Origin: Planctomycetaceae bacterium | Lineage (GTDB): Bacteria; Planctomycetota; Phycisphaerae; Sedimentisphaerales; UBA12454 | Direction: 5' to 3' | Assembly (NCBI GenBank): GCA_021371795.1 | Contig: JAJFVK010000024.1 | Coordinates: forward strand, 1-64,000 | DNA: 64,000 nt | In this document: in pieces, positions 3,231-26,835 of the stretch | Position numbering within the stretch: the first letter of the stretch is position 1 | How the letters are laid out: the number at the start of each line of letters is the position of its first letter | Notes under the pieces: generated by a model | What the model was told of the DNA's origin: nothing | Seen by the model: the letters and a program-made list of their open reading frames with translations, nothing else | Database searches by the model: none | Made by a program: the position numbers and the translations under genes

Positions 3231-4388
3231 TTACTGTCGCGGCTCTGATACAATCGCATCGCAGAGGGCATCAACTTGCTGTTTTGTATGGTCGGACTGC
3301 AAAGAAATTCGCAGACGAGATGTGCCTGGGGCAACTGTCGGCGGACGAATCGCGACAACATAAAAACCTTTTTCAAAAAGTTTTTTGGAAATCTCCAGCG
3401 TTTTTTTATTATCGCCGATGATTACGGGCACAATTTGACTTTGGCTCGCTGCGGTATTAAGCCCGAGTTTTTTGAGCTGCGAGCGCAGATAATCGCTGTT
3501 CTCTTTCAGGCTTTTTCTTTGGTCGTGCGCGTTTTTAATTATATCTATCGCACAAACAGCCGCGGCAGAATTTGCGGGAATCGGCGCGGTTGTATAAATA
3601 AACGGTCTGGCTTTATTAACCAGAAAATCAATAACGCATTTATCCGAAACGACAAAACCGCCGGTGCATCCTGCTGATTTGCTCAAAGTCGCAACAATAA
3701 TGTCAACATCGTTCAAAATGCCAAGTTCCTGCGCAAGGCCTGCGCCTGTATCGCCAAAACAGCCGAAGGCGTGAGCTTCATCGACAATTAAATACGCGTT
3801 ATATTTTTTCTTGAGTTCGACGAGTTTTTTCAAATCGGCAAAATCGCCGTCCATTGAAAAAACCGATTCAGTAACGATGAATTTCCGGTTGTAATCTTTT
3901 GACGCAAGAAGATTCTCGATTTTTTCAAACTGCGTCCGATGATAAGTTCTAAAATCGGCATCGCTGCCCTTGGCGGCATCGATAATCGAGGCGTGGTCGA
4001 GTTTATCGAGTAAAATCAAATCGCCCTTCTGCGGAATCGTCTGCAAAATGGCGAGATTGGCCATATAGCCTGCGGGGAAAACCAACGCGGCCTGCTTTTC
4101 AAATAAATCCGCTAATTTCTTTTCAAGCTCTACGTGCGGTTTGATAGTTCCGCTAATCAGACGAGACGCGGCAGAGCCGAAGCCATATTTATCCATCGCT
4201 TCTTTGGCCGCGGCGACAAGTCGAGCATCCCCTGCCAAATTCAGGTAATTATTGCTGCAAAACAGGATTTTCTCGGCGTTGCCGACGCGAATCGACGTTC
4301 CGGCGGCAGAATCTATCTCTATAAGGCCGCGAAGCAAGTCCTTTTGCTCAATGTTATTAAGCTCATTTTGTAAAAAATCGAATTTCAT
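3231..4388 (-). CDS. bioF: 8-amino-7-oxononanoate synthase / alpha-oxoamine synthase family
   Basis: PLP-dependent fold type I enzyme of the alpha-oxoamine synthase family, which joins an amino acid to an acyl-CoA or acyl-ACP with loss of CO2. BioF uses L-alanine and pimeloyl-CoA/ACP for biotin; the close relative Kbl uses glycine and acetyl-CoA. Visible are the substrate/PLP loop FPAGYMAN (about 104), VDEAHAFG (D203, H206) and the PLP lysine K237 in TLSKSAG, plus a normal length (385 residues from the ATG at 4388). The longer frame to 4451 adds residues without a better start. It is divergent from the rhomboid gene, and the spacer carries paired palindromes that could be an operator. No other bio genes are nearby, so the biotin role is likely but not certain. 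Confidence 0.75.
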   Translation of the reverse strand: MKFDFLQNELNNIEQKDLLRGLIEIDSAAGTSIRVGNAEKILFCSNNYLNLAGDARLVAAAKEAMDKYGFGSAASRLISGTIKPHVELEKKLADLFEKQAALVFPAGYMANLAILQTIPQKGDLILLDKLDHASIIDAAKGSDADFRTYHRTQFEKIENLLASKDYNRKFIVTESVFSMDGDFADLKKLVELKKKYNAYLIVDEAHAFGCFGDTGAGLAQELGILNDVDIIVATLSKSAGCTGGFVVSDKCVIDFLVNKARPFIYTTAPIPANSAAAVCAIDIIKNAHDQRKSLKENSDYLRSQLKKLGLNTAASQSQIVPVIIGDNKKTLEISKKLFEKGFYVVAIRPPTVAPGTSRLRISLQSDHTKQQVDALCDAIVSEPRQ

Positions 4389-9601: not shown

Positions 9602-10696
9602 TTAATTTTTCTTTATATAATAATTTATTTTTTTGCCGAGCGATTCGACCTGTTCTTTTTGCCTGAAGTCAACCGCTTCGGCATCGACCGTTATCACAGG
9701 GCATTGATTAAACGTCTCGAAAAATCTTTGATAACTGCTGTGAAGATTTTCAAGAAAACTCAAATCAATATCACGCTCATACACCCTGCTGCGCTCTTTT
9801 ATACGCTTCAAACACCCTGCCGGCGTGGATTTCAAATATACCACAAGCGACGGCGGCGCAACAGTTTTCGTCATCACAGCATTTACTTTTCTATATAAAT
9901 TAAACTGCACCGCATCGAGCCAGACTCTCGCGTATATCATTTCCTGCTGCATTATATAATCACTTACGGAAATTTTATTCCGCAGAACTTCCGGACTCAA
10001 CTGTTCACATCGACTCAATAAAAAGTACAACTGGCTATCGAGCGCAAATGATTTTTGTCCCGCGTAAACCTTCGCCAAAAACGGATTCGTATCATACGCT
10101 TCTTTTATCAGGTTAAAGTCGTAAACATTTTTCAGGCCATCGGCAAGAGTTGTTTTGCCAGCGCCGATTACGCCTGAAATACAAATCAATCGCGGAGCAT
10201 TCTCATCAATATGAAAATCGCCGCCTGAAAGTCTTTTGCGAAGCACGTCCGCTGTTTCATTTAAACGCGGATGAACAACCTGCGAATCTATTTCACAAAG
10301 CCCGTTTAACACGAATGACCGCAAATGCATCTGCGGATGCGGTATAACAAGGTCTTTACTTTTTACTATTTTTTTGCCATACAACAGAATATCAAGGTCG
10401 ATTGCTCTACTCGACCATTTTTCTGGAGTTTTTTTTCTGCCGAGCGTGCTTTCGATTTTCTTCAGAACCTTCAGCAGTTTATCCGGCGGCAGTTTTGTCT
10501 GAATCTGCGCAACGCAGTTGAGATAGTCATTTTGCTTTTTGTCGGCAAGCGGTTTTGTTTCCATTACGCTGCTGACACGAAGCAGATTTATACCTTTGGC
10601 GGACGCAACGGCATCGAGAGCTTTTTTCAAATTCTTCTGCCTGCTGCCGAGATTGCTTCCCAATCCGATATAAGCCGTTACACCATTATTTATCAT
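9602..10696 (-). CDS. folK: Fusion of HPPK (FolK) and a deoxynucleoside kinase
   Basis: 364 residues, two enzymes in one chain. Residues 1 to about 165 are 6-hydroxymethyl-7,8-dihydropterin pyrophosphokinase of folate synthesis: YIGLGSNLGSR at the start and the SRAIDLDILLYG signature. Residues about 172-364 are a deoxynucleoside kinase: P-loop GVIGAGKTT, an LSRCEQ segment, and the RxxxRERDID lid region (RVYERDID). The two activities belong to different pathways (folate and dNTP salvage). The start ATG at 10696 is preferred; the longer frame begins in a CACAGAG repeat. dapL ends 45 bases upstream. Confidence 0.88.
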   Translation of the reverse strand: MINNGVTAYIGLGSNLGSRQKNLKKALDAVASAKGINLLRVSSVMETKPLADKKQNDYLNCVAQIQTKLPPDKLLKVLKKIESTLGRKKTPEKWSSRAIDLDILLYGKKIVKSKDLVIPHPQMHLRSFVLNGLCEIDSQVVHPRLNETADVLRKRLSGGDFHIDENAPRLICISGVIGAGKTTLADGLKNVYDFNLIKEAYDTNPFLAKVYAGQKSFALDSQLYFLLSRCEQLSPEVLRNKISVSDYIMQQEMIYARVWLDAVQFNLYRKVNAVMTKTVAPPSLVVYLKSTPAGCLKRIKERSRVYERDIDLSFLENLHSSYQRFFETFNQCPVITVDAEAVDFRQKEQVESLGKKINYYIKKN

Positions 10697-10709
10697 TACA
10701 ATTTTTTTA

Positions 10710-10740
10710 GCCACAGAGTTCACAGAGACCACAGAGATAT
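10710..10740. repeat. CACAGAG dispersed repeat
   Basis: GCCACAGAG followed by two more CACAGAG words, filling the space between dapL and the folK fusion. Confidence 0.7.
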
Positions 10741-12430: not shown

Positions 12431-15400
12431 ATGAAAACATATAAAAATTTCGTAAATTTGTCAGGATGGAACAAAATTATGAGTAACAAAATTATTCTCG
12501 CTCTAGTATTAACCCTACTATTAACCACAATCGGCAGCGCAGCTTCATACAACGTAGCCGCAAATTTTGCTGATGTGAACTCGGCTATCGAGAATGCAAT
12601 CGACGGCGACGAAATCATTGTGGCTGATGGTACCATTACGCTCACCATTGATGTTTATAACCATCAGCAGCAATTCAACACCAACGGCAAAGCCATAACA
12701 GTCAAAAGCGCAAACGGGCCTTCAAACTGTACAATTGACTGTCATGGTGTTACGCGCGCGTTCCTCTGCGAAAACTTTGAAGATGTAACAACCGTTATTG
12801 ACGGCTTTACGATTAAGGATGGCAGCGCAGATTACGGTGCCGCAATCGAATGTTACGGCTCATCTCCAACAATCAAAAATTGCGTCATTGAAGGCGGTCA
12901 GGCATACTATGGCGGTGCTATCGATATATTCTTCGGCTCGCCTGTAATTCAGGATTGCGTTATCAGAAATAACACCGCTGATTCTGACGGCTCGGCAATT
13001 GAATGCAGCGGCGGAGAGTCAATGCCCGTAATCCAGAACTGTCTTTTCTATGGCAACACCGCAACGAACAGATATGCAGCTTTAGATTTTTATGACAATT
13101 GCTCCGCGGAAATAACCAACTGTACAATAGTAAATAACACAGGAATAGACTCTTTCGGCGGTGTATATTCTACGGACTCGGATGTAACAATCCGCAATTC
13201 AATTCTCTGGAACAACGGCATCAGTACCAGCGGCATAATTACTGCAACCTACTGCTGTATCGAAAACGGACACAGCGGAACAGGCAACATAAGCAGCAAT
13301 CCAATATTCAAAACCGGTCGTTACGGCGATTATTATTTGAGCCAGGTATCGGCAGGACAGTATTATACAAGCAGTTGCGTCAATGCAGGCGACAGTAACG
13401 CTGTCAATATTTTCGGCACTGGCGCATATACAACAAACACTTATGACATCGACGACACTACTAAGGTCGATATTGGCTATCATTATTACAATCCCAACCT
13501 GCAGGAAACCTGCACACTGACAACATATCCGGAACCGTCAGCAGTTTATGGCAGTGTTGATCCTTGTTATCCGACAGGACAAACTTTTCCAAAATACAGC
13601 GAAAAATCAATATCTGCGTATCCGGCCGGTACCTACCAACTCACGGAATGGCATTACGGCGATACAGCAGGCTTCCCCGGTACATACAATGTCTTTTCAG
13701 GATTATCGGAATTTACCATAACGCTTGATGCCGACAAAACAGTTGTCCCGGTATTCAACACAGTGCCGATGTACAAATTGACAGCTTACGTAGTTGACGG
13801 CAATGGCACTGTCAGCGTTTCTCCAAATAACTATCCGGATGAATACGACCCGGACAGCTATTATATACAACAAGGCACAACTGCTACAATTACCGTGGCT
13901 ACACAAACCGGTTACATAGTAAAGAACTGGTATATATATAAGACTAACGACCCCAACCATTCTGTAATTAAAGCCGCGACAAGCAACACCTGTGTCATAG
14001 ATATGAATGACAACATAACAGTTGAGGCACAGTTACAATATCAGGAATACGAACTTAGAACCCGCGTTGACGGCGGCAATGGAACTATCTTGCCGAAACG
14101 CACAAAATATCCGGCTGGAACAACCGTTAATCTGTCGGCAACACCATACACCGGTTACAGAGTACATGCCTGGGGCGGCGATGCAATAATAAAGCCAAAC
14201 TGGAATGCCCGCACCAACACCGTATTGATGAACGCGATTAAAGATGTCAATGTAACGTTCGAGCTTGACACAAGCAAAGTAATCTTTGTCGGCGCCGGCG
14301 GAGATATTCAGGGCGCAATCGACGATGCAAATAATGGCGATACCGTAAAACTATCTCCTGGTACTTATGTCGGTACAGGTTTAATGGTAAGTGGAAATAA
14401 GGCAATTACAATTCTGGGCGACCCTGAAAACCCGGAAAATTATGTAATCGACTGTTCTGGCGAGGGATCTATCGGCATCTATGTCTCAAGCATGTCGCCG
14501 TGTACAATAAACGGCATAACGATAAAGAATATAGATACTTTCACCGGAGATGGTACAAATGCAAGAGGCCCAGATCAAGCCGGCGTTAATGGTTTTGATC
14601 ATTTCTACGGTGCAATATCGTTGGTAAACGCAAATCATCAGGTTCTTAACTGCCGTATAAGCAATGTAACACTCTCTGCCGGAGACGGCGGTGCAGGTGC
14701 CGACGGAAATACAGCCGTCTGGGATGGCTCTTATGGCGGCGATGGCGGATGGGCAATGGGCGGAGGTATAGTCATATGGGACTCTTCACCTTTAATTAAG
14801 GGTACCATCATTGAGGACTGTACCGTAATAGGCGGAAACGGTGGTAACGGCGGAAATGGACGTACTGCCGAAGCTCCAGATTCAAATCTCGGCGAAGGTG
14901 GTTATGGTGGTTTACCAGGCGCAGCTTATGGCGGCGGTATTGCTTGCTGGAAAAACTCGAGTCCGATATTTGAAGATTGCATTATTCGCAGATGCCAGGC
15001 AATCGGCGGACACGGCGGTAACGGCGGTAATGGCGGAAGAACAATGATGGGCGGTTACGGCGGTCTGGCGAAAGATGCCGGCGCATGGCATAAAAATAAC
15101 AAGATAGATCCCAATGGTTGGGGTGGCTCGCGTATCGGTATAAATTGGCCCAATAACATCTTTGCGACATTTGACCCTGTTACATTTGCAACGGACGCCA
15201 ACTCAATAGATATATCCGATTACAGCACACAAGGCGGCGGTATTTATGTAGGACGCGACTGTAATGTAAAATTTATCGGCTGCACATTGAACGACAATAC
15301 GGCCGAGGGATGTATCAGCGGATTAGGCGGCCTTTATAACGTCACTGGTGCACAAATCCAGCCAAGGAAAAATTACCACATGCCAAGTTACGGCAGCGCC

Positions 15401-18400
15401 GTATTTTGTGATGCCAACTCCATTACTAAGTTTACACGCTGCGAAGTATATAATGATGAAATCGTAGTTACAAACGACGGCGAAGATATAGTCTCCGAAA
15501 ACGATGACTGCGGCGGCGGAAGTTTAGGTTCTCGAAACACTCTGTGGAAAGATGTCAATGACTGCAATATTTACACAAACTTCGCACCGTATGGCGCCGG
15601 TATATACGATGTAAACAGCAACGATACACACATCAACGATTGCAATATATATTCGAACAATTCATATTCCGGCGGCGGCGTTATGACCATTGATTGTTAC
15701 GGTCATATACACAACTCCATCATACGCAACAACACCGCAGGAACACAGCTTGAACCGAACCTGACCGACTACGCGTTATTCGGTTCCGGCGGCGGCGTTT
15801 ACGCATTTTCGAGCTGCCTTGATATCAACGACAGCATAATAACCGATAACGCAGCCAACTCGACCGGCGGCGGCATTTGCTTCGCGGGCGATTACGCAGT
15901 GACGCCAACAATTATGAACTGTCTGATTAAGAATAACAGGGCAGGCGTATCGGGCGGCGGTATAGCAGCAATAGAATATGCCGACCTGACAATTCAAAAC
16001 TGTACTATATACAATAACGCTGTAACCGGCGCGGAAGGCAGCGGCGGCGGTATTTTTGCATCGTATGCTGCCAAAGTCATTGTAAAAAACAATATCATCT
16101 GGAACAACAAAGGTATCGCAGGTTCGCAAATCGGATTAAGCAAAGGCGGAAGCAGTACATACTTCTACGCCTATATGAAAGCTCTGTACAACGATATAGA
16201 TTTACGAGCCAATGCAGCTCTCGACTTTGCCAACAGCACAAGTTCCAGCCCGTCTATAACAATCAGCAAACTGATAGATGCTGAAACAATTTATAATGAA
16301 ATCAATACATCAGGAACAGCAAAGGTTATCATCACACTGGCTGATGTGGATTTCGATACCGACTGGTCTTCGTCGGCATCTATAAGTATGACACAAAACG
16401 CGATAGCGTATCGTCAGACTAAAGTGCTCTCTTCAATGGAAGCCGGTGAATTTACTCTTACCAACCAATATGTCAACGTAGCGGCATTAGGCGGAAAAGT
16501 AACAGCGTCAGGTTTGACCTCATTGTTGAACAATTCGCTTGTCGCACATATTGAGCCGGTCAGAATATGTTATCCGGCACTTGCACAGGCTATTCCGATG
16601 GGCAACGCACTTGCCACACGTTCGCAGTATAACGGCCAGAACTGCGCTATAGCTATTGTCGATACAGGCATTGACTATACGCATTCCAGACTTGGCGGCG
16701 GCAGCTTCCCGAACGCAAAAACTATCGGCGGATTCGATTTCGGCGATAACGATGCCGACCCGATGCCGGTTGAAGGTTATACATATACTGACGGATACGG
16801 CATAGGAGCACACGGTACAAATTGCGCAGGTATTGCGGCAGGAAATCTTGGAACCGTCGGCGATTATATCGGCGGCGTTGCTTACGGCGCAAAATTGTAC
16901 GCACTTAAAGTTACACTCAATACAGACCTGTATCAGGGTTTCCCGAACACCGCGACTTACGCTGCGTGGGACTGGTGCTTAACGCATAAGGACGATAATT
17001 CGTCTTATCCTATCAGAGTAATAAGCAACAGTTGGGGAAGCCGTGTAGCTGCGTTTGACAATGAAGAAGACGCAGACAATTATTCACCTTCGTTTGCAAC
17101 ACTGGCGAAAAACATAGTCGACGCAGGCATTACAATTCTTGCCGCATCCGGCAACGAGGGTCGTACCGACAGTATCGCATGGCCTTCAGCAATGTCGAAT
17201 GTAATCAGCGTAGGCGCTCTATATGACACAACCGGTCAGGTAACGGATTATTCAAATTCGGCTGACAACCTCGATATATTCGCCCCCGCTGACCCTGTTT
17301 ATACAACCGACCTTGTAGGCTCGGCAGGTTATGACGGCGATTATTATCCTTACTTTAACGGCACAAGTTCAGCTTGTCCGTTCATTGCAGGATGCGTAGC
17401 GGCTCTGCAAAGCGCAGCATTAGATTACTTAGGCGCCCCGCTTACGCCTGCACAGATTGAAACCATTTTGAAAGCTACGGGCACTTCTGTAACAGATACG
17501 AAAGTGGCTGTAACAAAACCGATGGTAAATCTGTTATCAGCGATAACACTTTTAAGTTCATCGTCTCCGATTTATACAGATGACGCAGGCAATACTCTCG
17601 TCGGTATCGCAAAAGACGCCAGCAACAACTGGACGGTTCAGGGCAGTACGAACATTTCCGCTGACCCGAATTTTGTTCTTGGTTTCTATTTGAGCAGTAT
17701 AGATGCAGGACAGGATATTACAAGCGTGTGCGTCAATGCAGGCAGTACTTACGCAACAGTTCTTAACCTTGACACATATACGACAAGAACAGACGGTGTA
17801 AAAGATATGGGTTATGTCGATATGGGTTATCACTATGGAGAAGGTCTGTCCGTTTATAATTTAGTTATAGACGTAAACACCTCTGCCGCCGACGGAACTA
17901 CAGACCCGCTGCCCGGCCTATACAAAAAATATTCCGGCGAAGTTGTAACTATCACGGCTGTTCCTGATGTAAATTCACGCGTAGCAGCATGGATTATTGA
18001 CGGCACATCAATACCTTCGAATGTCAAGAAATATACTATAACAATGGATAAATCGCACACGGTTACGGTTGTGTTCGAAGAATATGTTACAAGAAGCATA
18101 GTTGTTCCTGACCAGTATAAGACTATTCAGGAAGCTCTCGACGTGGCTGAAAGCGGCGATATAATTTATATTTATCCGAAATCAGACGGCACACCGCACT
18201 ATATCGAAGACCCCTGCGGTCTGGACTTCGGCGGCAAAGCACTGACTATCCGCTCACGTTATCCGGACGACAAGAATATTGTTGCCGAGACTATTATCGA
18301 TTGCAACAACAGAGGCCGTGCTTTCATCTTCAGAAATAATGAAGACGCATGCAGCGTTATAGAAGGTTTGACAATAACCAATGGCCTGGCATCCGGCACA

Positions 18401-21400
18401 ATAGCTACCGGAACAAGAATAGTATTAGACCCGGAAGATGCCAATATATATCAGTTGGACGGCAATGACGGCAACGGTAACGGTTACGGCGGTGCGATTT
18501 ATGTTGGAGTAGGTGCAAGTCCGACAATTCGCAAATGCGTATTCACAAACTGTCAGGTAACCGGCGGTCAGGGCAGCGACGGCGGCAGAGGCTATGACCT
18601 GCCGTCTGACAGCACTCTCGAACGCGGCGGATTCGGCGGCGACGGCGGTAACGGAAGCGGAAACGGTTATGGCGGCGTTATCTTCTGTGCCGCAAAAAGC
18701 GCTCCGGCTGTACTCGACTGCAAATTCAACGACAATGCCGCACACGGTGGTATCGGCGGCGATGGCGGCGACGGTGGTAACGGCGCCAGCGGTAAAACCG
18801 CAGGCAACGGCGGAGACGGCGGCGACGGCTATGGCAACGGCTTCGGCGGCGTGATTTACTGCTCGGCCAAATCATCACCTAAAATCCTCGGCTGCAGCTT
18901 TGGCGAAAACCTCGGCGGTATGGGCGTCGGCGGAACATACGGCTTACAAGGCTGGGGCCCAACACCAACAGACCCGCCCTATCCGTATGACGGTTACGCC
19001 GGCTCATCCAGCGGAACAGGCTACGGCGGCGCTATCTATTATGAAAAAGGTTCCAATGCCGACATCAACGACTGTCAGATTCTTAACGGTGATACAGTCG
19101 CAACAACAGGCGATACTCTTGGAAGCGGCGGCGGCGCGATTTACTTCGAACCGGCCTGCGCTAACAGCGTAATCCTAAACTCGACTCTTGCCGGCAATAA
19201 GGCTTCTGCGGGTTTGGGCGGCGCTATTATATTAAACGCAAACAATAAGCTCGTTCTTAACAACTGTTATATCGGCGGCAACAGCGCCAACACTGACGGC
19301 GGCGCTATCGCGGTCGGTTCAAAGAATGATGCAAACTTATGCGAACTCGTTTTCAGCGACTGCGTCTTTACGAGCAACACGGCATCGGCACTGGGCGGCA
19401 GTATCTACGCAAAGAACTCTGACGCAAACTTTGTCGAATGCTTTGTCAATAGAAACACAGCACATTCCGGCGGCGGTCTCTACATTGTATCAGAGTCATC
19501 GCTTAGATTCATCGGCGGAACGATAAACGACAACAACGCTGTCGGCAGCGATGCCCAGGGCGGCGGTGCTATGATAATGCATTTACCGGCGGAATTTATA
19601 AATTGTCAGATAACCGGCAACTCTTCAAACTATGCCGGCGGCGGTATTATGCTTAACGGACCTGAAACGGCAATCTCCCAGATAATCAACTGTCTGTTTG
19701 CCAAAAACAGGGCTGCCGTAAGGGGCGGTGCGATTGTTACATCGCTGGATTCAAGTCCGACAATCAAAAGTTGTACATTCAGTGAAAACGAAACTGATGT
19801 CGGCGGTAAAGGCGGCGGTATATTCTGCACGTTCAGAAGCTCACCGAAAATTAAATACTGTATTTTCGACAAGAACAAACGAATCGCAATCTATGAAAAC
19901 AGTACAGATTGTAAACCAGTAATTTCTTACAACTTATTTAATAACAATTACCATGGAGACTACTATAACTATACCATTGACAGGCTGTTCAGTATCATAC
20001 AGCCTGCAATTGACAGAAGCACAGAACTTTCGGAATTAAATGCCCATACGGCAGGCAATAACATCGCAGATTTGTCGGTTAACTCCAATGAAATTGAGAT
20101 ATTCAGAGCAGGCAGTCTGGGCGATTATTATCTGCGACAGAAAACTGCGGATTACAATGATACTGCCTGTCTGGCTATTAACGCAGGCGATGTTGACGCA
20201 ATGGCAGTTACAGTATTTGACGGCAAAACAATGGCTGACTATACAACAAGAACCGACAGCTATTTGCCGGACGCAACTTCAGACACATATGACATCGGCA
20301 AACTTGATTTAGGCTTCCACTATAAGGACGCAAATGAAGCTGCCCAGCTTTACCTGACTACGGAAGTCGCAGGCGGAAAAGGTACTATTTCACCAGCATC
20401 CGGTTATGTATACAGAGGCACAACAGTTCAGCTTACAGCCGCGCCGACAACAGGCTGGCGTGTAAAACAATGGTTGGGAACAGACGACGACAGCACAACA
20501 AACACAACAAATTACGTTGTGATGATGTCAGACAGAACTGTTTCTGTAGCATTTGAACAACCGAGAAACCTGTATTTACCGGCCGGCTATGCGACATTAC
20601 AGGAAGCAATCAATGACTCAAGAGATGGAGATAAGATTATTATATCTCCGGGAACGTATCAATATTTCGACATCAACTACGATAATTTGTTTGGCGTAGC
20701 GATAAACGGTAAAAGTATAACAATTACCGGTTCCAACCCGGATGACCCGTGTGTTGTGGCTGCGACAATCTTTAAGGGCAACAGATTTGTTATTTCAAAT
20801 GTTGATTCTTCGATGATTCTCGATGGCATTACTATTCAGGGTTCTCACTGGTATGGCGGCGATGCACTATGTCCGACAACACCAATAAGTCCTGACGGAA
20901 TAAACGGCGGCTCTTTGCTTGGCGGTGCGATGGAAATAAATAATGCTTCTCCGACGATACGCAACGTCAGATTCGTTGACTGTTCGGCAGGCGGCGGAGA
21001 CGGCACTAACAATTGCAGCACTGGCGGCGACGGCGGATGGGCAGGCTATGGCTACGGCGGTGCTGTTGGCATAGATTCAGGCAGTTCACCAGTATTCAAG
21101 AATTGCAGTTTCACCGGATGTTACGCTTATGGCGGTGACGGCGGCGACGGCGACACATCAAACGACACACCGGGCCACGGCGGCAACTGGGGCGACCCCA
21201 ACGGCAGTAGATATCAAACATGGGACTATGCCGACGATATGGGCGGCCCAGGCAGTTACGCTCCTTACTGGTACTACACTGGTCAGGGTGGCGCAATTTA
21301 TTGTTCAGCCGATACTCATCCGGTATTCAAAGACTGCGTCTTCAGCAACAACTTCGTTGTAGGCGGAACCTGTGGTATTAGCTGTCCGGATGTAGAAGCA

Positions 21401-23680
21401 TGGCCAAACCATCATTATATTATTGACTCATTCGGCGGCGCTGTTTATATGGCAACCGGAAGTCAGGCTGACTTTACAGATTGCAACTTTGTCAACAATC
21501 TCGGCGATACAAGAAATCAGATTGGCGATGTAAATAATGTTGCATGGTTATATAAAGAAGCAAATTGGGCATTGTCTGATAACGTCGTAAGTTACGGCGG
21601 CGCAATCTACGCCGAATCGACAGATTCGATTCCAACAGTTAAAGATTGCACATTCAACAGCAATATAGCATGTGCTGGCGGCGCTTTGAATGTAGAAGAT
21701 TCAATCTTCCATATCAGCAACTCAAACTTCTTTGGCAACACTGCAATGCTCGGCGGTTCAATGCTGTTCATCGGCAGTGATACAATTCTGTCCTCATGCG
21801 ATTTCTACGGCAACACCGCGGTAGCACCGGCAGGTCAGGGCGGCGTTGTTTACAGTGCAGCAGGCGCTCCGAAGTTCTATGATTGCAGAATGTTGTATAA
21901 CAGCGCAAGCTCATCAGGCGGCGCCGGTTACTTCTCTGGCGAACTCGAACCGATTATGCACAACTGCTTAATCACACATAACACAGCTGCCACTTACGGC
22001 GGCGGTTTATCCGCGAACTTCGACGTTCAATTACACATGTCGAGCTGTACGGTTGCACACAATCAGGCAACAGGCAGTACAAGTTTCGGCGGCGGTTTGA
22101 ACTGTGCTTACAATGCGAATACCACTGTCATCAACAGTATATTCTGGGAAAATGAAGCTAATACAGGTCGCCAGATAGCTATTGGTAATAGTTACTCCGC
22201 TGCTGACAAACAGCCGGCTGAAGTAACTGTAACATACAGCGACATACAAAGCGGCGGCGCAGGAATATTCTGCGACCAGACAAACGGCTGTCTGCTCTAC
22301 GGCTTCACTGAACCAAGCACAAACCTGTACGGCACAAGCCTGTCAAGTCCGCAGTTCATTTCATCGCTATGGGTAACAACACCATGGAACGACTACTTCC
22401 TTGCAGCACCGGATATAAATGAAGGCTCTGCAACAATGCAGACTACTGACAATATGTGTATCGATTCAGGTTCTGGCACTGCAATAAGCTGGAATATGTA
22501 CAAACACACAACCAGAACCGACCGCAAGATCGATGTTCCGGATTCCAATATCGATATGGGCTATCACTATATCATACCCGCCACTATAACAGGCGACTTT
22601 GATTTCGATGGCGATGTGGACATAGTTGATTGTAATGGGTTTATGCAATACTGGATGTACGAAGATTGCACGTTCCCGTATTACTGCAACGGACGCGATT
22701 TCACCGAAGACGGCGAAGTCGATTTCGAGGATTACGCCATATTCGCGGACTACTATCAGGAAACCGAGAAAATTCCGCCGCAGCCTAATTCAATGACTTG
22801 GGCAATATTACCGAAGTCTGCTGGTCTAACCTCGATTACAATGACGGCTACAACCGCGACAGATAATTCAAGTAAGGTTATTGAATATTACTTCGAGTGC
22901 TTATCCGTTAAAGATCACAACAGTGGTTGGATCACCAGCAGCACATATACAGATACTGGCTTAACCACGGGCGACACTTATGGATATCAGGTCAAAGCAA
23001 GAGATGGCCGAGGCAACGAAACAGGCTGGAGCTTACCACACTATACAAGGGCCGGCTCGGATTCGACTGCGCCGACGCCAGACCCAATGACATGGCTGAT
23101 TGTGCCGACACTGATAGATTCAAATTCTGTCGGAATGTCTGCCACGATAGCGACCGATATTTCCGGCGTTGAGTACTCCTTTGAAGAAACAACCGGTCAT
23201 AACGGCGGTACCAACAGCGGCTGGATTTCAGTCAACACTTACATAGACTATGGCCTTGAACCCAATACGGTATATACCTATAAAGTTCAGGCACGTGATA
23301 AATCAGACAACTACAATGAAACTGGTTTTTCAGCAGAGCGTTCAATAAAAACTCCTGCATCAGGCGGCGATGTTAATGATGTTAATGATACAAATGATAT
23401 TAGCAACATCATTCCGCTATGGACAACTGAACCTTATGCTACCAGCGGAAATCCGTGGTATTATCACATAATGGACGCCACAGCCGCCACCGACGCGGTT
23501 GCATATTACTTTGATTGCTGCGAAGGCGGCGGAACAGACAGCGGATGGATTACATCCACACATTACGAAGCCGGCCCATTCGGCAGCGTTACAAATTCCT
23601 CGTACAGGTACAAGTATAAAAACGCCGCTGGCAAAGAAAGCGGATGGTCGCCGATTGTAAGCACGTTTAGTGGATGGTAA
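12431..23680 (+). CDS. Giant secreted beta-helix protein with an embedded subtilisin domain, dockerin-like and FnIII tail
   Basis: 3749 residues. Signal peptide at the N-terminus (hydrophobic IILALVLTLLLTTIG; an internal ATG at 12479 would give a more ordinary one). Four right-handed beta-helix modules each begin with a pectate-lyase-like 'AI…A.GD.I.…GTY' motif, near residues 38, 617, 1888 and 2712. They are rich in GGGI/NN turns, include very Gly-rich loops, and tend to end in an INAGD…D-GYHY signature. InlB-like B-repeats (about 355-615, 1815-1885, 2640-2710) link them. A complete S8 subtilisin domain lies at about 1400-1690 with D1411 (DTGID), H1461 (HGTNCAG), oxyanion N1575 and S1646 (GTSSACP). 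A dockerin-like double calcium loop is at 3388-3443, then three FnIII-like domains to the end. It is probably a surface or secreted glycan-binding/degrading factor; the substrate is unknown. Confidence 0.88.
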   Translation: MKTYKNFVNLSGWNKIMSNKIILALVLTLLLTTIGSAASYNVAANFADVNSAIENAIDGDEIIVADGTITLTIDVYNHQQQFNTNGKAITVKSANGPSNCTIDCHGVTRAFLCENFEDVTTVIDGFTIKDGSADYGAAIECYGSSPTIKNCVIEGGQAYYGGAIDIFFGSPVIQDCVIRNNTADSDGSAIECSGGESMPVIQNCLFYGNTATNRYAALDFYDNCSAEITNCTIVNNTGIDSFGGVYSTDSDVTIRNSILWNNGISTSGIITATYCCIENGHSGTGNISSNPIFKTGRYGDYYLSQVSAGQYYTSSCVNAGDSNAVNIFGTGAYTTNTYDIDDTTKVDIGYHYYNPNLQETCTLTTYPEPSAVYGSVDPCYPTGQTFPKYSEKSISAYPAGTYQLTEWHYGDTAGFPGTYNVFSGLSEFTITLDADKTVVPVFNTVPMYKLTAYVVDGNGTVSVSPNNYPDEYDPDSYYIQQGTTATITVATQTGYIVKNWYIYKTNDPNHSVIKAATSNTCVIDMNDNITVEAQLQYQEYELRTRVDGGNGTILPKRTKYPAGTTVNLSATPYTGYRVHAWGGDAIIKPNWNARTNTVLMNAIKDVNVTFELDTSKVIFVGAGGDIQGAIDDANNGDTVKLSPGTYVGTGLMVSGNKAITILGDPENPENYVIDCSGEGSIGIYVSSMSPCTINGITIKNIDTFTGDGTNARGPDQAGVNGFDHFYGAISLVNANHQVLNCRISNVTLSAGDGGAGADGNTAVWDGSYGGDGGWAMGGGIVIWDSSPLIKGTIIEDCTVIGGNGGNGGNGRTAEAPDSNLGEGGYGGLPGAAYGGGIACWKNSSPIFEDCIIRRCQAIGGHGGNGGNGGRTMMGGYGGLAKDAGAWHKNNKIDPNGWGGSRIGINWPNNIFATFDPVTFATDANSIDISDYSTQGGGIYVGRDCNVKFIGCTLNDNTAEGCISGLGGLYNVTGAQIQPRKNYHMPSYGSAVFCDANSITKFTRCEVYNDEIVVTNDGEDIVSENDDCGGGSLGSRNTLWKDVNDCNIYTNFAPYGAGIYDVNSNDTHINDCNIYSNNSYSGGGVMTIDCYGHIHNSIIRNNTAGTQLEPNLTDYALFGSGGGVYAFSSCLDINDSIITDNAANSTGGGICFAGDYAVTPTIMNCLIKNNRAGVSGGGIAAIEYADLTIQNCTIYNNAVTGAEGSGGGIFASYAAKVIVKNNIIWNNKGIAGSQIGLSKGGSSTYFYAYMKALYNDIDLRANAALDFANSTSSSPSITISKLIDAETIYNEINTSGTAKVIITLADVDFDTDWSSSASISMTQNAIAYRQTKVLSSMEAGEFTLTNQYVNVAALGGKVTASGLTSLLNNSLVAHIEPVRICYPALAQAIPMGNALATRSQYNGQNCAIAIVDTGIDYTHSRLGGGSFPNAKTIGGFDFGDNDADPMPVEGYTYTDGYGIGAHGTNCAGIAAGNLGTVGDYIGGVAYGAKLYALKVTLNTDLYQGFPNTATYAAWDWCLTHKDDNSSYPIRVISNSWGSRVAAFDNEEDADNYSPSFATLAKNIVDAGITILAASGNEGRTDSIAWPSAMSNVISVGALYDTTGQVTDYSNSADNLDIFAPADPVYTTDLVGSAGYDGDYYPYFNGTSSACPFIAGCVAALQSAALDYLGAPLTPAQIETILKATGTSVTDTKVAVTKPMVNLLSAITLLSSSSPIYTDDAGNTLVGIAKDASNNWTVQGSTNISADPNFVLGFYLSSIDAGQDITSVCVNAGSTYATVLNLDTYTTRTDGVKDMGYVDMGYHYGEGLSVYNLVIDVNTSAADGTTDPLPGLYKKYSGEVVTITAVPDVNSRVAAWIIDGTSIPSNVKKYTITMDKSHTVTVVFEEYVTRSIVVPDQYKTIQEALDVAESGDIIYIYPKSDGTPHYIEDPCGLDFGGKALTIRSRYPDDKNIVAETIIDCNNRGRAFIFRNNEDACSVIEGLTITNGLASGTIATGTRIVLDPEDANIYQLDGNDGNGNGYGGAIYVGVGASPTIRKCVFTNCQVTGGQGSDGGRGYDLPSDSTLERGGFGGDGGNGSGNGYGGVIFCAAKSAPAVLDCKFNDNAAHGGIGGDGGDGGNGASGKTAGNGGDGGDGYGNGFGGVIYCSAKSSPKILGCSFGENLGGMGVGGTYGLQGWGPTPTDPPYPYDGYAGSSSGTGYGGAIYYEKGSNADINDCQILNGDTVATTGDTLGSGGGAIYFEPACANSVILNSTLAGNKASAGLGGAIILNANNKLVLNNCYIGGNSANTDGGAIAVGSKNDANLCELVFSDCVFTSNTASALGGSIYAKNSDANFVECFVNRNTAHSGGGLYIVSESSLRFIGGTINDNNAVGSDAQGGGAMIMHLPAEFINCQITGNSSNYAGGGIMLNGPETAISQIINCLFAKNRAAVRGGAIVTSLDSSPTIKSCTFSENETDVGGKGGGIFCTFRSSPKIKYCIFDKNKRIAIYENSTDCKPVISYNLFNNNYHGDYYNYTIDRLFSIIQPAIDRSTELSELNAHTAGNNIADLSVNSNEIEIFRAGSLGDYYLRQKTADYNDTACLAINAGDVDAMAVTVFDGKTMADYTTRTDSYLPDATSDTYDIGKLDLGFHYKDANEAAQLYLTTEVAGGKGTISPASGYVYRGTTVQLTAAPTTGWRVKQWLGTDDDSTTNTTNYVVMMSDRTVSVAFEQPRNLYLPAGYATLQEAINDSRDGDKIIISPGTYQYFDINYDNLFGVAINGKSITITGSNPDDPCVVAATIFKGNRFVISNVDSSMILDGITIQGSHWYGGDALCPTTPISPDGINGGSLLGGAMEINNASPTIRNVRFVDCSAGGGDGTNNCSTGGDGGWAGYGYGGAVGIDSGSSPVFKNCSFTGCYAYGGDGGDGDTSNDTPGHGGNWGDPNGSRYQTWDYADDMGGPGSYAPYWYYTGQGGAIYCSADTHPVFKDCVFSNNFVVGGTCGISCPDVEAWPNHHYIIDSFGGAVYMATGSQADFTDCNFVNNLGDTRNQIGDVNNVAWLYKEANWALSDNVVSYGGAIYAESTDSIPTVKDCTFNSNIACAGGALNVEDSIFHISNSNFFGNTAMLGGSMLFIGSDTILSSCDFYGNTAVAPAGQGGVVYSAAGAPKFYDCRMLYNSASSSGGAGYFSGELEPIMHNCLITHNTAATYGGGLSANFDVQLHMSSCTVAHNQATGSTSFGGGLNCAYNANTTVINSIFWENEANTGRQIAIGNSYSAADKQPAEVTVTYSDIQSGGAGIFCDQTNGCLLYGFTEPSTNLYGTSLSSPQFISSLWVTTPWNDYFLAAPDINEGSATMQTTDNMCIDSGSGTAISWNMYKHTTRTDRKIDVPDSNIDMGYHYIIPATITGDFDFDGDVDIVDCNGFMQYWMYEDCTFPYYCNGRDFTEDGEVDFEDYAIFADYYQETEKIPPQPNSMTWAILPKSAGLTSITMTATTATDNSSKVIEYYFECLSVKDHNSGWITSSTYTDTGLTTGDTYGYQVKARDGRGNETGWSLPHYTRAGSDSTAPTPDPMTWLIVPTLIDSNSVGMSATIATDISGVEYSFEETTGHNGGTNSGWISVNTYIDYGLEPNTVYTYKVQARDKSDNYNETGFSAERSIKTPASGGDVNDVNDTNDISNIIPLWTTEPYATSGNPWYYHIMDATAATDAVAYYFDCCEGGGTDSGWITSTHYEAGPFGSVTNSSYRYKYKNAAGKESGWSPIVSTFSGW

Positions 23681-26283: not shown

Positions 26284-26835
26284 ATGAAAAAACTACAATT
26301 AATTTTAATGCTCACGGTCTTAACAGCGTCGACAATCATTTTAACCGGCTGCTACAGTTGCCAGACGTGCAACCATCTGTGGGGCAAAGGTGAGCGCAGC
26401 AGTTTCCCGGAAAATAAATTCTTCTGGGATAAAGACTGCAAAAAAATATGCAAATCGGCCTGCGGAGACAATCAAACAATAACAAAATTCCCCTACGGCA
26501 AGCTCGGCATAATCCAACTCGATGAAACCCTTCCGCCAAATGTAACCGTCAACTCGGAATTCAACTACATCGTCAAAGTATCGAACCTTACCAAAGTAAC
26601 CGTCAGGGATGTAGTCGTAACAGAAAATCTGCCCAACAATTTCAAATATGTAAACTCCGCGCCTGCCGCTGAAGTCCAAGCAGGCAGCCTGCGGTGGACA
26701 ATCGACTCAATCGCACCCGGCGAAGTCAAGACATTGTTAGTTACAGGCGTATCGCCGACAACCGAATGCGTCAGCATCTGTGGAATGCTTACTTACAGGC
26801 CGCCAATCAGCGAAACTATAAGCCGCTGCGATTAA
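26284..26835 (+). CDS. Cysteine-rich lipoprotein with one DUF11 domain (OmcB-like fold)
   Basis: 183 residues. A lipoprotein signal peptide ends in the lipobox LTGC with C23 as the lipidated residue. A cysteine-rich segment follows (CYSCQTCN, then about four more Cys by residue 60), then one DUF11 domain (about 80-165, NVTVNSEFNYIVKVSNLTKVTV … TENLP). DUF11 repeats and clustered cysteines are the hallmarks of chlamydial OmcB and planctomycete cell-envelope proteins, so a disulfide-linked envelope role is plausible. Strong ribosome-binding site (AAGGAAGGTG). It stands alone between the permease remnant and the convergent transporter gene. Confidence 0.75.
   Translation: MKKLQLILMLTVLTASTIILTGCYSCQTCNHLWGKGERSSFPENKFFWDKDCKKICKSACGDNQTITKFPYGKLGIIQLDETLPPNVTVNSEFNYIVKVSNLTKVTVRDVVVTENLPNNFKYVNSAPAAEVQAGSLRWTIDSIAPGEVKTLLVTGVSPTTECVSICGMLTYRPPISETISRCD

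Follow-up and report, generated by a model that had tools for sequence, protein, structure and literature searches.

A probable subtilisin zymogen inserted into the last coil of a beta-helix module of a giant, predicted secreted protein from Planctomycetota

The window, i.e., the whole stretch of 64,000 nucleotides analyzed here, contains an open reading frame (ORF) for a giant protein of 3749 amino acids (Table 1), the N-terminus of which comprises a hydrophobic stretch that, judged by eye, resembles a signal peptide. Pfam searches identified eight stretches of Beta_helix (PF13229), three divergent InlB/Flg_new_2 repeats and, at residues 1402–1689, a Peptidase_S8 domain (PF00082, E 6.8e-38). 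Four beta-helix modules end with the closing pattern DP-F...(V/I)NAG...TTRTD...GYHY, located at about residues 350, 1800, 2629, and 3378, and a dockerin-like stretch recognized by eye covers about residues 3386–3445; weak Fn3-like repeats are present as well. According to the Pfam matches and the modeling of module 4, the giant contains PbH1-type coils which adopt the fold of a right-handed parallel beta-helix. Across the whole protein, Pfam yielded no autotransporter beta-barrel translocator at E 0.01 and NCBIfam no choice_anch domain, nor was an anchor or outer-membrane module found in it. Two further ORFs of the window may be mentioned. One at 9602–10732 on the reverse strand fuses HPPK (folate synthesis) to a deoxynucleoside kinase and is conserved in the syntenic neighbors, and one at 26284–26835 on the forward strand encodes a small DUF11 protein that weakly resembles OMP6, a cysteine-rich protein of the chlamydial outer membrane.

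Table 1. Position of the giant ORF and of the parts of modules 2 and 4 within the window.
Feature	Residues	Nucleotides	Strand	Remarks
ORF for predicted giant secreted protein	3749 aa	12431–23680	+	N-terminus resembling a signal peptide; four beta-helix modules and InlB-like repeats; C-terminal part dockerin-like and Fn3-like
Module 2, beta-helix part ahead of insert	617–1256	14279–16198	+	Pfam Beta_helix; AF2 strands at residues 991–1252; last strand with motif ALYNDI at 1248–1256
Whole insert in socket	1257–1713 (457 aa)	16199–17569	+	Matching loop in module 4 has 6 aa
N-terminal linker of insert	1257–1277	16199–16261	+	Ser/Ala/Asn-rich; 17–33 aa ahead of propeptide in the 36 inserts
Propeptide	1278–1384	16262–16582	+	Predicted beta-alpha-beta-beta-alpha-beta, subtilisin-prodomain-like; putative cleavage after L1384; common to free secreted paralogue
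Subtilisin S8 domain	1385–1710	16583–17560	+	PF00082 match; pro-subtilisin E, Z 35; catalytic residues in 36/36
Catalytic Asp	D1411	16661–16663	+	
Catalytic His	H1461	16811–16813	+	
Oxyanion Asn	N1575	17153–17155	+	
Catalytic Ser	S1646	17366–17368	+	
Closing part of module 2	1714–1802	17570–17836	+	Strand IYTDDAGNTLVG, then SADPNF...VNAG...TTRTD...VDMGYHY; model strands at 1714–1736
Empty socket of module 4	3273–3278	22247–22264	+	QSGGAG, between strands TYSDI and IFCD

In module 4, the strands TYSDI (3268–3272) and IFCD (from 3279) are joined by six residues, QSGGAG, and the equivalent strands of module 2, ALYNDI (to 1256) and IYTDD (from 1714), lie 457 residues apart. An earlier note on this DNA had described the junction of module 2 as interrupted, which holds, at a length of about 430 residues, which has to be corrected to 457 (1257–1713). 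It had also let the closing signature resume after the protease at ISADP, whereas the closing part starts again before that, at the strand PIYTDDAGNTLVG (residues 1713–1725). The helix end, given in the note as WNN…YNDI, has to be corrected as well: YNDI occurs once, and modules 1, 3, and 4 have YCCIE, YNLF, and YSDIQSGGAGIFCD, respectively, at the corresponding spots. A probe in which the helix end of module 2 was joined directly to its closing part matched module 4 at 22121–22570 in one uninterrupted stretch, and the two flanks are therefore parts of one module.

The order of elements was also seen in an AF2 model of residues 960–1810, built on an alignment of 25 sequences and of moderate confidence (pLDDT 74.9, pTM 0.60). 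Helix strands extend up to residue 1252, followed by a prodomain-like part (about 1284–1382), the S8 domain (1394–1709) and, after very few further residues of the insert, strands at 1714–1736; beyond about residue 1740 the closing segment is poor (pLDDT <50). For the insert-free module 4 (pLDDT 71.2, pTM 0.77), the model shows the same order of strand, short turn and strand at 3279–3281, and it resembles the right-handed beta-helices Vag8, AlgE6, AlgG, and PL6 lyases with Z scores of about 25. Both models were built on shallow alignments. From strand order and homology we infer that the re-entry strand stacks on the helix. The models place the junction between neighboring strands of the last coil, with no separate terminal domain between unrelated helices. 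An ordinary linear multidomain architecture, in which the protease would be a separate domain between two unrelated helices, could draw on the fact that the closing segment is poorly modeled in both predictions. It appears very improbable, given that the joined-flank probe matches an insert-free module continuously, that in unoccupied modules a connection of about 6–30 residues links these two strands, and that the strand after the site is present in both models. The idea of a self-contained protease inserted in a beta-helix module, put forward in the earlier note, is thus borne out by homologous modules that lack the insert, both within this giant and among its relatives, and by the models.

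The insert itself is, as far as can be read from the sequence, a complete subtilisin zymogen consisting of a linker, a propeptide and an S8 domain with D1411, H1461, N1575, and S1646. The catalytic residues lie exactly where they had been proposed before (D1411 in DTGID, H1461 in HGTNCAG, S1646 in GTSSACP), and the oxyanion asparagine N1575 is present as well. Among solved structures, unautoprocessed pro-subtilisin E (3whi) fits the modeled propeptide and S8 domain best, with Z 35.1 across 333 residues and an rmsd of 2.8, and it is also the top match in Foldseek. Pfam Inhibitor_I9 gives no match to the propeptide, but the structural match to unautoprocessed pro-subtilisin E extends across the prodomain, and L or M stands at the putative P1 position of 36/36 inserts. 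The same genome encodes a free secreted paralogue of 842 residues (G000:C19), in which a signal peptide precedes the same propeptide and an S8 domain, followed by a C-terminal part; the plug therefore appears to be a whole zymogen rather than a fragment.

Profiles of the helix end and of the closing part were used to parse 35 fetched regions and the window. The 36 S8 inserts obtained in this way, 449–475 residues long, share the junction and come from 32 genomes of the order. All of them (36/36) retain the catalytic D, H, and S as well as the oxyanion N. The putative P1 residue is L in 28 and M in eight inserts, and Q is found at P2′ in 36/36; from this conservation and by analogy with subtilisin, L1384|A1385 is considered the putative cleavage site. 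The linker ahead of the propeptide comprises 17–33 residues, compared to 3–10 residues after the S8 domain. All ten unit-spanning matches in the window's family contain the unit or most of it, as do about 28 other genomes from the order. Within the family the orthologous locus is syntenic, with conserved upstream neighbors in seven genomes (G004-G008, G011, G012). A phylum-wide draw of 392 genomes did not contain the full unit outside the order, and all records in which a scan of GTDB detected it bear the titles Planctomycetes, Planctomycetota, Phycisphaerae or Phycisphaerales. A viral origin was considered and rejected, as scans with the 3749-residue protein and with an alignment gave nothing or only generic S8 matches. 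Since the data are mostly metagenome assemblies, a chimera arising from assembly or binning has to be considered. Its probability is practically negligible: the 36 instances in 32 genomes, nearly all of them in other assemblies and one of these a single-contig genome (G115), occur at the same junction, which excludes chance or misassembly, and orthologues lie in a syntenic locus.

In sister modules of this or of related giants, the same site holds further types of domains. All 11 of the von Willebrand factor A (vWA) domains found (VWA E 2.9e-10), six of seven nidogen-like domains (NIDO E 8.3e-27), two of two choice-of-anchor L domains (choice_anch_L E 8.3e-74) and three of three propeller-like domains, the latter assigned by reading the sequence without a family match, sit in it, and in 51 clean modules it is empty; these counts stem from regions chosen mostly for holding S8 and are not estimates of frequency. 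The seventh nidogen-like domain belongs to a broken-off ORF, where it is preceded by a helix end. Complete with both flanks, vWA units occur in about 20 genomes of the order, in some of which no S8 unit was found, and one ORF of 12,792 residues contains S8 twice together with NIDO and vWA. The junction in the last coil, leading from a strand ending in YSDI/YNDI to a next strand of the type IYVE-GC-L, is on this sequence evidence a general socket for whole folded domains. An intein or a mobile element was set aside as an explanation, as the occupants are unrelated domains and features of splicing or transposition were not seen. Examples of vWA in the same beta-helix junction as the window's S8 are L057:6281-8257 and L060:12422-14401. 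Separately, contig G027:C2 (L159-L161) carries tandem giant ORFs of 3242, 3786, 4312, and 5216 residues, where one ORF ends within a NIDO plug and the next starts at the matching closing part, possibly due to a frameshift.

Regarding the origin of the inserted protease, phylogenetic analysis united the inserted S8 domains in one clade (100/99), nested among secreted subtilases from Planctomycetota, Verrucomicrobiota, and deltaproteobacterial relatives. A strict single capture of S8, as implied by a first tree with all 36 inserts as one clade, had to be rejected: the N-terminal S8 of a giant from G071, once added to the tree, falls inside the inserted clade (97/90), which calls for at least two events, either a capture and a relocation or two insertions. 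In the 3502-residue ORF concerned (G071:C17, L193/L194), the inserted-type S8 is N-terminal after a signal-peptide-like stretch, and all parsed sockets are empty. A second, distant S8 occurs near the N-terminus (residues about 27–573), outside the socket, in giants of G028, G030, G046, G088, G033, G036, and G027. Free secreted S8 proteins (e.g., L022, L020, L066, L067) possess an extra cysteine-rich loop of about 30 residues, which the aligned inserted S8 domains, including that of the window, do not have. In a tree of the host modules the insert types are scattered, with 14 changes for S8 and eight for vWA; the repeats align poorly. This scatter suggests an exchange of plugs, with gene conversion as an alternative, and little weight is given to it.

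Subtilases fold under the guidance of their prodomain and then cut the boundary between prodomain and mature part; the prodomain acts as an inhibitor of the enzyme until it is degraded. The sequences give an insert at a defined site, a complete zymogen with its catalytic residues, alternative occupants and a free secreted paralogue; folding in place, autocleavage, activity, display and the proteins cut are what we infer beyond them. After Sec export, the inserted propeptide would fold the S8 domain, which would then cut itself after L1384 and in this way nick the giant chain once, inside the insert, between propeptide and S8 domain. The mature S8 domain would stay on the C-terminal half via its 3–10 residues, and the propeptide on the N-terminal half via the linker. 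Stacking of the coil and binding of the propeptide may hold both halves together, and the coil would keep the S8 domain on the scaffold, such that an active protease is presented outside the cell. As the socket is occupied by non-catalytic, binding-type domains in other relatives, its simplest common purpose appears to be that the scaffold displays functional domains, with the protease as one of these plugs. Altogether, we assign a probability of roughly 0.6 to a self-maturing protease displayed on a giant extracellular scaffold, with the zymogen plugged into the last-coil loop. As no anchor or outer-membrane module was found, it is an assumption that the protein stays at the surface and is not released as a whole. 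The free S8 relatives may share substrates with the inserted protease, in which case insertion would add only tethering. With slightly less than even confidence, we further propose that interchangeable domains are mounted via the last-coil socket within one order, and that maturation of the S8 type would lead to a nicked two-chain helix, kept in one piece by coil stacking, with an active or propeptide-controlled protease.

Maturation of a complete zymogen within the chain would split the giant in two, which might also serve as a switch for self-release, a possibility raised in the earlier note: after the nick, linker or propeptide would be digested, and the cell would shed either the C-terminal part or the N-terminal one, which comprises module 1 and most of module 2. 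The longer linker before the propeptide, as compared to the few residues after the S8 domain, would leave the N-terminal side more open to such a second cut. Self-release nevertheless appears unlikely, as the coil in which the insert lies would keep the halves joined through its next strand, and as the non-catalytic domains in the relatives' sockets indicate that the site is not there for cutting. Less probable still is a role as processing protease that acts on neighboring surface proteins or on linkers in this and other giants. Many giants are multi-module, some have two S8 inserts or the extra distant N-terminal S8, and with SphB1, which processes filamentous haemagglutinin (PMC6070651), there is a precedent for the processing of a beta-helical surface protein by a subtilase; on the other hand, a shared cleavage motif in the linkers was not identified, and beside the locus only housekeeping genes and no partner gene are conserved.

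Giant proteins of Planctomycetota are common and almost uncharacterized, and no published description of an S8-in-beta-helix socket architecture was found in the open-access literature. The way in which such proteins gain functions would be explained by one conserved loop that accommodates four or more unrelated types of domains, with plugs being swapped and the scaffold kept constant. The socket would also represent a natural site, tested by evolution, at which whole enzymes could be inserted for display on a beta-helix. The insert offers a direct test of the effect of a self-cleaving zymogen inside a repeat fold.

Among known systems, Ssp of Serratia marcescens (PMC9977779) likewise combines a subtilase and a right-handed beta-helix in one secreted protein; there, the subtilase is located ahead of a short helix, whereas in the giant it lies between two strands and no Pfam autotransporter beta-barrel is present. 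SphB1 and filamentous haemagglutinin also pair a subtilase with a beta-helical surface giant, but SphB1 is a separate autotransporter protein (PMC6070651) and not inserted in the scaffold. Secreted pro-subtilases with I9-type propeptide (3whi, pro-Tk-subtilisin, and the free paralogue) share with the insert the S8 fold, the catalytic residues and, as predicted for the insert, the propeptide fold and the maturation site, but are free-standing or N-terminal, whereas in the giant both ends of the zymogen are anchored within another domain. In SPATE passengers such as EspC (PMC11970781), subdomains emerge from loops of a right-handed beta-helix that is combined with a serine protease. In EspC, however, the inserts are small (SD2 567–620, SD3 666–694) and the protease is N-terminal and trypsin-like, whereas the giant appears to carry a whole S8 zymogen as insert, in a socket with several alternative occupants.
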